The notes under the pieces were generated by a model that saw only the letters and a list, made by a program, of their open reading frames with translations, was not told the origin of the DNA and ran no database searches. The position numbers and the translations under genes are program-made. A DNA stretch of 64,000 bases from Chryseobacterium indologenes (GTDB taxonomy: Bacteria; Bacteroidota; Bacteroidia; Flavobacteriales; Weeksellaceae), in contig CP065590.1 of the NCBI GenBank assembly GCA_016025055.1, positions 3,472,001 to 3,536,000 of the forward strand, given 5' to 3'. Of this stretch, positions 12,767-14,210 are shown piece after piece; within the stretch, counting starts at the first letter, position 1, and every line of letters begins with the position of its first letter.

Positions 12767-12774
12767 TATATTTG
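12767..12774 (+). promoter_or_regulatory. -7 box of the stand-alone receiver gene
   Basis: TATATTTG matches the consensus exactly, 16 bases before the ATG at 12791. An in-frame TTG start at 12772 would lie inside this box, which argues against that start. Confidence 0.55.
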
Positions 12775-12790
12775 TTCAAAATTACACAAC

Positions 12791-13149
12791 ATGAAAAAAA
12801 GGTGGTGCTCATTCAGGAGAATGAAGTGATCCTGGATATAATGGATGAAGTGCTTGAGGATGAGGGTTTTGATGTAACGCCGTCTTTGACGACTGAACCC
12901 ATTGAAAATATCGAAGATATTGATCCCGATGTAGTCATCGTAGACGATCACATCAAAGGAGATAAAAAAGGATCAGAAGTTATCAGGGAGCTTAAATCTG
13001 ATCCGGATACAGAAGATGTTTCTTCCGTTCTCACCTCTACGGCCCATAATATTGAGAAAACTGCAAAAGACTGTCTGGCCGATGATTTTATTCAAAAACC
13101 TTTTGATATAGACCATATGATTGATGTGGTAAAGAAAAATGCCGAATAA
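12791..13149 (+). CDS. Stand-alone response regulator receiver, probable frameshift
   Basis: The protein of about 120 residues is a receiver domain with no output domain. It has an acidic N-terminal pocket region (IMDEVLEDEGFDV), the phosphoacceptor region DPDVVIVDDHIKGD, the conserved Thr/Ser loop (LTSTAH), and the lysine in FIQKPFDIDHM. Proteins of this kind pass a signal by protein-protein contact. The ATG at 12791 is one base out of frame because the A-run at 12794-12800 has seven A. With eight it would read MKKKVVLIQENEVILD. Without that correction, translation would have to start at GTG 12802 or 12805. No histidine kinase is adjacent. Confidence 0.75.
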
Positions 13150-13218: not shown

Positions 13219-13567
13219 TTATTTTTCGATGACAAAAGCTTCCAGTTCCACCATTTTATGATCCCTGAATCGCCATATATCACAATAAGAATAGTCCCTC
13301 ATTTTTCCTCCAGTATCTTTCATACTTATCTGGCCTGTAGCGATTACATAATCCTTTTCAGCAACTATTTTGTCTACAAAAAACTTGGGGGGGCTCCAAA
13401 TAAGTCCGGGCCATATATTCTCGTACGGCTTCCTTTCCGGTGAGGGTCTGGTCTCCTACAAAAATCCATGTCACATCATCCGAACAAAAAGATAAAAAAC
13501 CTTCGTAATCTCCTTTTGTAATGGCAGAATTTGCGCTTTCAAGAATTTCTTTATTTTGTGTACTCAT
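13219..13567 (-). CDS. NTF2-like (SnoaL-type) protein, frameshifted
   Basis: The first frame gives MSTQNKEILESANSAITKGDYEGFLSFCSDDVTWIFVGDQTLTG, the typical start of a SnoaL/NTF2-like cone-shaped fold. The second frame continues KFFVDKIVAEKDYVIATGQISMKDTGG and ends LEAFVIEK. The break is a G7 run at 13387-13393 (C7 on the coding strand). Six C restore the frame as EPPKFFVDK, so a one-base insertion is likely. The full protein is about 115 residues. Members bind small hydrophobic ligands or act as isomerases; no catalytic residue can be assigned. Confidence 0.75.
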
Positions 13568-13620: not shown

Positions 13621-13651
13621 AAAAAAGCCTTATAATCAGAGATCATAAGGC
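13621..13651 (-). terminator. Terminator of the peptide genes
   Basis: GCCTTAT and ATAAGGC pair around an 11-base loop, followed on the minus strand by six T. It lies just past the second GG-leader peptide gene. Confidence 0.7.
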
Positions 13652-13661
13652 CTTAAAATTT

Positions 13662-13811
13662 TTAACTCAATATATCACACGGTGCTATACACAACACCCA
13701 CGGACATCTTTTGATTCCCGGAGGAGGGCAACATGCTTCGGAGCAGCCTGCCGGTGCTCCACCATTGACCTTCTTCAGCTGGTCCCTGGAAATTTTCTTG
13801 TAATTTTTCAT
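13662..13811 (-). CDS. Bacteriocin-like GG-leader peptide 2, Cys-rich, 49 aa
   Basis: The peptide begins MKNYKKISRDQLKKVNGG, a leader of the Bacteroidota natural-product-precursor/double-glycine type, with a predicted cut after Gly18. The core of 31 residues is rich in Cys and Pro: it has six Cys (C23, C27, C28, C36, C41, C45) and a PPP motif. The gene starts 15 bases downstream of peptide 1 on the same strand and ends before a terminator. No peptidase-transporter or modification enzyme lies next to it. The leader similarity to peptide 1 is strong, while the cores differ. Whether it is an antimicrobial, a signal or something else is unknown. Confidence 0.75.
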   Translation of the reverse strand: MKNYKKISRDQLKKVNGGAPAGCSEACCPPPGIKRCPWVLCIAPCDILS

Positions 13812-13826
13812 AAGGCAGCATGTAGA

Positions 13827-13970
13827 TTAAGGCTGGTTTCCACCACCACATCCGTCGAATGGCATACATTGCCATTTGCCGCCGATCATACAAATCTGGC
13901 CACCAGGACAGTTGATTCCTCCTTTGATTGATTTTAACTCTTGTCTTTCGATTTTCTTTAAATTTTTCAT
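13827..13970 (-). CDS. Bacteriocin-like GG-leader peptide 1, Cys-rich, 47 aa
   Basis: The peptide begins MKNLKKIERQELKSIKGG, the classic GG-type leader of Bacteroidota bacteriocin-like peptides (often annotated so in Chryseobacterium). The predicted cut is after Gly18. The core of 29 residues is Gly- and Cys-rich, with four Cys (C21, C27, C35, C41), and ends in GGG-NQP. It shares the leader pattern with peptide 2 downstream, and together they look like a two-peptide operon. Its small size hides it from standard ORF searches. Export and cleavage would need a C39-peptidase ABC transporter encoded elsewhere. Confidence 0.8.
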   Translation of the reverse strand: MKNLKKIERQELKSIKGGINCPGGQICMIGGKWQCMPFDGCGGGNQP

Positions 13971-14210
13971 AATATTTAGGTTTAGTACTTTTCGAAATTA
14001 ATCAATTTTTCCTAACTAAAGTATAATTATTATAAAATATTTATTGTGAAATGATTTTATTATTTTGTATTCCTCTTTAAATACCTGAAATAAAGCAGAA
14101 TGTAATAAATGCGATCTCATCTTTGAATACTGTTGTAATGAAAGCTATAACACTTTCTTTTCTTTCTGTAAATCTTGTCCTGTGACAAGTTTATTTTTCT
14201 GAAAACCAGG

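Follow-up and report, generated by a model that had tools for sequence, protein, structure and literature searches.

The described systems closest to the locus reported here include: (i) the class II double-glycine bacteriocins of Gram-positive bacteria, among which the two-peptide class IIb is encoded by two adjacent precursor genes, and (ii) the leader_Chryseo family (NF047798), for which the name 'bacteriocin-like protein' and a curated leader model are already known, the model spanning the leader alone and leaving the cores, their pairing and the exporter outside. A third system, the bacteroidetocins of the Bacteroidota, is proposed as class IIf (PMC6671954); the leaders are of 15-16 aa, the cores are of 42-48 aa and the peptide gene lies beside genes for a transmembrane protein, a thiol oxidoreductase and a C39-type transporter, with no obvious immunity gene described.

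The locus compared with these systems resides in a 64,000-nucleotide stretch (the window) of a Chryseobacterium indologenes genome, which is a single contig of 4.92 Mb. Two small precursor genes are arranged in tandem on the minus strand, with the following features (window coordinates):

13827..13970, minus strand: precursor of peptide 1 (47 aa), an 18-aa leader ending in GG and a 29-aa core with four Cys
13917..13970, minus strand: leader of peptide 1, matching NF047798, with hydrophobic residues at -4, -7, -12 and -15 from GG
13662..13811, minus strand: precursor of peptide 2 (49 aa), an 18-aa leader ending in GG and a 31-aa core with six Cys and CCPPPG
13758..13811, minus strand: leader of peptide 2, matching NF047798
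13812..13826, minus strand: 15-bp spacer separating the genes of peptide 1 and peptide 2
13624..13654, minus strand: intrinsic-terminator-like hairpin 3' of peptide 2
13971..14010, minus strand: conserved stretch 5' of the peptide 1 ATG, ATTAATTTCG ... ACTAAACCTAA in 30 aligned loci, a candidate promoter or 5' UTR

This layout agrees with an initial annotation of the DNA, which had described two minus-strand ORFs of 47 and 49 codons 15 bases apart, a double-glycine leader on both, cores with four and six cysteines (one with a PPP motif) and a terminator after the pair, here seen as a terminator-like hairpin. The further claim that the genes are hidden from ORF calling is wrong, as close relatives are listed as 'bacteriocin-like protein' in public databases and a curated NCBI leader model exists. 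The spacer of 15 bp in the window compares with 22-31 bp at 29 other loci, and a hairpin with a T-rich tail is detected 3' of the pair at all 30 loci aligned, according to scripted criteria (20 plain shuffles, as control, gave a mean of 3.8 and a maximum of 7 of the 30 loci). The short spacing and the terminator-like hairpin suggest that the genes of peptide 1 and peptide 2 form one co-transcribed unit.

Both ORFs are genuine genes, beyond chance, based on full-length homologues in 59 of 98 sampled genomes, a tandem arrangement at 60 of 60 loci and a pooled pN/pS of about 0.1 (30 loci). Peptide 1 and peptide 2 each have 60 such loci, spread over an identical set of 59 genomes (G038 carries two copies of the unit), and peptide 2 lies within 400 bp of peptide 1 at every one of these loci, with no genome encoding one alone at the full-length level. 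Full-length here denotes the block of matches above a gap in score (at least 73.5 bits for peptide 1, with the next match at 59.7, and at least 63.2 bits for peptide 2, with the next at 41.0); weaker lone relatives are detected below the gap, e.g., the 59.7-bit paralogue of peptide 1 in G008. The paired, different cores pointed out initially are, thus, kept as a tandem unit. A scan of named genomes, overlapping the 98-genome set, yields 38 peptide 2 loci, all labelled Chryseobacterium, of which 36 have both genes intact and one (L162) encodes a different peptide. The remaining locus (L161, 1332-1643, of Chryseobacterium sp. E1) has frameshifts in both peptide genes, from either decay or sequencing error.

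The pooled pN/pS values come from 30 of the 60 pair loci, and the synonymous sites approach saturation; they are 0.137 (leader) and 0.096 (core) for peptide 1, and 0.122 (leader) and 0.107 (core) for peptide 2. Close pairs of sequences give values of 0.07-0.10, except for the leader of peptide 2 (0.25). By these estimates, leaders and cores are both under purifying selection, and the constraint on the cores equals or exceeds that on the leaders in the pooled figures.

The window pair belongs to NF047798, as the scores of both precursors against its 18-position leader model (35.4 bits for peptide 1 and 32.5 bits for peptide 2) exceed the curated cut-off (23.5 bits). Apart from this leader model, no family reaches its own cut-off for either protein in family-profile searches: the rSAM-modified RiPP family TIGR04149 gives 11 bits for peptide 1 only (cut-off 25), the CCPGW putative bacteriocin family NF047792 gives 20.3 and 15.4 bits (cut-off 80), and the matches to Pfam PF10439 and PF11632 are below cut-off and mostly within the leader. 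Searches for solved structures return no credible match to either peptide (best E of 0.15 and 0.13). The AlphaFold2 model of peptide 2 is weak (mean pLDDT 65.5, pTM 0.33); thus, no fold is claimed.

With the Gram-positive class II and IIb bacteriocins, the pair shares the leader type and the two adjacent precursor genes, which are kept together at all 60 loci, but it differs in its Cys-rich cores, its lack of a recognised immunity gene and its Pfam matches below cut-off. The term 'two-peptide bacteriocin' is used for the pair as a working analogy and not as membership. The features shared with bacteroidetocins (PMC6671954) are the Bacteroidota host, a double-glycine leader, a Cys-containing core, a C39-type ABC transporter, a thiol oxidoreductase and no obvious immunity gene. 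By contrast, the leaders of the window pair are of 18 aa rather than 15-16 aa, the cores are of 29 and 31 aa rather than 42-48 aa, two different peptides are encoded in tandem, and the exporter cassette is distant and includes an HlyD protein. Neither a five-transmembrane protein, a thiol oxidoreductase nor a C39 transporter is recognised beside the window pair. The pair is, thus, kept apart from the bacteroidetocins on account of leader length and gene neighbourhood.

The two leaders are part of a larger set in this genome, in which 22 leader matches are over the NF047798 cut-off and 47 are found at E <= 1. All 22 precursors over the cut-off have at least four Cys, their cores are very different, and six of the leaders end in GA, GS, GE or AG instead of GG. 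In a table of 16 leaders from this genome, which also served as a search profile, hydrophobic residues are present at -4 (16/16), -7 (14/16), -12 (16/16) and -15 (15/16); the table comprises 15 of the 22 leaders over the cut-off and one below it (L029), with the irregular L005, L007, L010, L017, L021, L024 and L025 left out. Hydrophobic residues at these four positions followed by GG presumably represent the substrate pattern of C39 peptidases, and the leaders of the window pair fit this pattern. Elsewhere in the genome, an array of six leader peptides is noted at G000:C1:3042382-3043695 (L069 3269-4708, minus strand), where several cores share a C-C-CC-C-C spacing that is taken here to resemble that of knottins. 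At G000:C1:380410-380680, two tandem leader peptides have related cores (C...W....CCR.WD...W.NPVCP) that are probably the result of duplication.

Four C39 proteins are encoded in this genome, of which one is part of a cassette whose transporter is located as follows:

G000:C1:2393922-2396111, minus strand: C39 ABC transporter of the cassette

The cassette is composed of genes for a VKOR-thioredoxin-domain protein with two CxxC motifs, a leader_Chryseo peptide, the C39 ABC transporter and an HlyD protein. Its transporter is 1,089,554 bp (1.09 Mb) from the window pair, such that exporter and precursors are not adjacent. Of the four C39 regions, the cassette is the only one with a match to the leader profile. 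The three other C39 exporters are judged less likely to export the pair, since no leader-profile match is present in their 12-kb regions; one of these regions adjoins a lantibiotic dehydratase and another a grasp-with-spasm-like protein (TIGR04193, 135 bits, below the cut-off of 175). Precursor-like ORFs with different GG leaders are observed in two of the other C39 regions (L066 8712-8855 and L068 8431-8870). A C39-peptidase ABC transporter in the genome and the leader in other genomes, both put forward initially as checks, are hence found. The initial reading of the ORFs as precursors stands with respect to the GG leaders, the Cys-rich cores, the tandem unit, the C39 transporters and the occurrence of the leader elsewhere, and falls with respect to the genes being hidden.

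The association of a leader peptide with the exporter extends to other genomes. A scan of 56 regions with the leader profile, at a self-chosen threshold of 12 bits, detects a same-strand match no more than 2.5 kb upstream in 31 of 40 exporter loci hand-picked from the exporter list, in the cassette of this genome (1/1) and in 7 of 10 regions chosen because the pair is near the exporter or, in the case of G018, because the genome is of the same group. Five regions from leaderless genomes give one weak match, which is beside an unrelated C39 protein, and one of two unrelated C39 loci used as control has a weak match (14.8 bits).

The pair itself is near the exporter in some genomes and distant in others. 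In the 22 of 59 genomes for which the distance is available (in most others, the pair and exporter are on different contigs, and the same-contig G035 is left out), the pair is 0.3-20.7 kb from the transporter in ten and more than 1 Mb away in twelve; in G040, G072 and G062, the pair has the VKOR gene on one side and the transporter on the other. The ten linked genomes together with G018, in which pair and transporter are on separate contigs, account for the eleven lowest-scoring full-length peptide 2 loci. On a transporter tree of 54 rows, the ten rows of this cassette group are clustered (2 changes versus a mean of 9.4 after shuffling), and the rows with the pair elsewhere require 8 changes versus a shuffled mean of 17.4; as the tree is midpoint-rooted, it does not show the direction in which the pair moved.

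Exporter and leaders co-occur at the level of genomes, by statistics that ignore shared ancestry in both samples used. In the genus sample, leaders are detected, among the matches listed, in 90 of 93 genomes with a close exporter versus none of 5 without (Fisher p 8e-7), where presence of the exporter is defined as at least 87% identity and the match of G086 (89%) is partial. In 124 genomes from other genera of the family, leaders (E <= 0.001) are detected, again among the matches listed, in 11 of 19 genomes with the exporter versus 3 of 105 (p 1.3e-8); the exporter is here defined by at least 80% identity, a line set after viewing the table, and the 19 include several partial exporter matches, one of which has an in-frame stop. 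An absolute linkage of exporter and leader is rejected based on exceptions of both kinds among the matches listed: G029, G052 and G088 have an exporter and no leader over the cut-off, and G110, G147 and G208, from outside the genus, have a leader (one below the family cut-off) and no close exporter. In regions from the former three genomes (L080-L082), the gap between VKOR and exporter has no leader ORF in L080, and the two genes are 54 bp apart in L082.

The region upstream of the pair differs between the two arrangements. The DUF805b RNA (Rfam RF02914), a cis-regulatory candidate, precedes cassette-linked copies of the pair and not the window pair. In eight loci of the cassette group, RF02914 is over the gathering score and ends 18-19 nt before the peptide 1 ATG; the coordinates of G091 give the same placing, and L071 has the same element with one changed base, although it is not listed over the gathering score. 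By contrast, the element is in none of the 20 loci scanned (of 30) from the unlinked group, the window's included, and the window as a whole has no match at the gathering score. The Bacteroidota promoter motif TTG-N-TANNTTTG is likewise detected in none of 30 loci.

Within this genome, RF02914 precedes 5 of the 22 leader peptides over the cut-off (one element being below the gathering score). Its 13 matches at E <= 1e-6, of which 10 are over the gathering score, precede leader-type ORFs in seven cases (one degenerate) and other or unclear ORFs in six, while the 30 RF02914 loci from a search of the genus precede leader peptides in 19 cases and other ORFs in 10, with L208 unscored. The notion that RF02914 marks leader peptides exclusively is, thus, rejected. 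The element is present in 97 of 98 genomes (best places listed), and the counts of leaders and RF02914 across the 98 genomes correlate at 0.83, or 0.61 with genome size removed. Examples of RF02914 about 20 nt 5' of leader-peptide ATGs are seen at G000:C1:1159033, 2396381, 1510827, 1487730 and 2149364, among others, and in L070-L079; the element is also noted 5' of some other small secreted-looking proteins. A literature search, with most subscription journals outside its scope, found no paper on DUF805b.

In the flanks of the pair, a hydrolase is the only ORF of at least 60 aa common to more than five loci (17/30; 1.5-kb flanks). A neighbour gene at 13219-13567 (minus strand), presumably SnoaL-like, is fragmented in the window, while the relative L036 has a single, intact ORF of 119 aa at the corresponding position.

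Together with the genes, their conservation and pairing, the cassette and the co-occurrence established here, a course of processing, oxidation, joint action and role can be proposed for the pair. The leaders of both precursors would be recognised by the cassette transporter 1.09 Mb away, and its C39 domain would cut both after GG, with the ABC transporter and its HlyD partner carrying the mature peptides of 29 and 31 aa out of the cell. Export of the pair by this distant VKOR/C39/HlyD cassette is predicted with high confidence. The VKOR-thioredoxin protein may pair the cysteines of the cores, in which disulfides are plausible given that such a protein is encoded in the exporter cassette. The mature peptides would then act jointly outside the cell, which is put at even odds, and narrow-spectrum antagonism (as a bacteriocin-like pair) is the likeliest form of this action. 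Among the possible roles, antagonism ranks first, based on the analogy to the bacteroidetocins (PMC6671954), and an antibacterial effect as such is suggested tentatively, at somewhat less than even odds. As a whole, a conserved two-peptide secreted unit that is exported in trans and bacteriocin-like is the best explanation for the pair, with a probability of roughly 0.55.

Conservation of the cores, as opposed to diversification, fits a signalling role no less well. In this alternative, the pair would be a pheromone-like secreted signal or a self-directed cue, and not a toxin, with export through the same cassette. Such a role would agree with purifying selection on the cores, in which 20 of 29 columns (peptide 1) and 18 of 31 (peptide 2) are invariant across 30 loci, and with the presence of the same cores in 59 of 98 genomes. 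The ORF at 12772-13149 (plus strand), near and downstream of the pair, is presumably receiver-domain-like and would suit a signal as well; however, it is common to only 2 of 30 loci, and a signalling role is considered unlikely on balance. No immunity gene is recognised among ORFs of at least 60 aa within 1.5 kb on either side of 30 loci, which does not decide between toxin and signal, since bacteroidetocin regions are also without an obvious one (PMC6671954).

The four and six closely spaced cysteines of the pair, and the occurrence of at least four in each of the 22 precursors with very different cores, raise a further alternative, in which the peptides perform another extracellular job, such as metal binding, a redox function or association with the surface, and are misnamed as bacteriocins. 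This alternative is regarded as improbable, and a metal or stress gene is not recognised among the neighbouring ORFs looked at. Pairs away from the cassette may instead be relics that are transcribed and have lost their processing, as could be argued from the 1.09 Mb between pair and exporter, the lack of RF02914 in the 20 such loci scanned and the frameshifts in both genes of one named genome (L161). The two reading frames are, however, under purifying selection, and the terminator-like hairpin is present in 30 of 30 loci; both findings speak against loss, and decay of this kind is given very little weight.

A broader proposal, held only speculatively, is that of a dispersed peptide-secretion system in Chryseobacterium, in which one oxidase-protease-exporter cassette would serve dozens of Cys-rich precursors encoded at scattered sites, 22 of them over the cut-off in this genome and five of the 22 behind RF02914. 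The pair would be an obligate two-peptide effector of this system, located beside the exporter in one species group and at a distance in others, the leader being common to both arrangements and the upstream control region being different. The odds of this proposal are reduced by the finding that only 5 of 22 leaders in this genome have RF02914.

Among the literature matches listed, with most subscription journals outside the scope, no title or opening of an abstract treats the peptides or the exporter, which is weak evidence of absence. Through this analysis, a database family defined by its leader only becomes a testable system, for which candidates for the exporter and the oxidase, a two-peptide unit that is conserved and a specific exporter knockout can be named. 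RF02914, in turn, gains a recurrent downstream partner in the form of putative secreted Cys-rich peptides.
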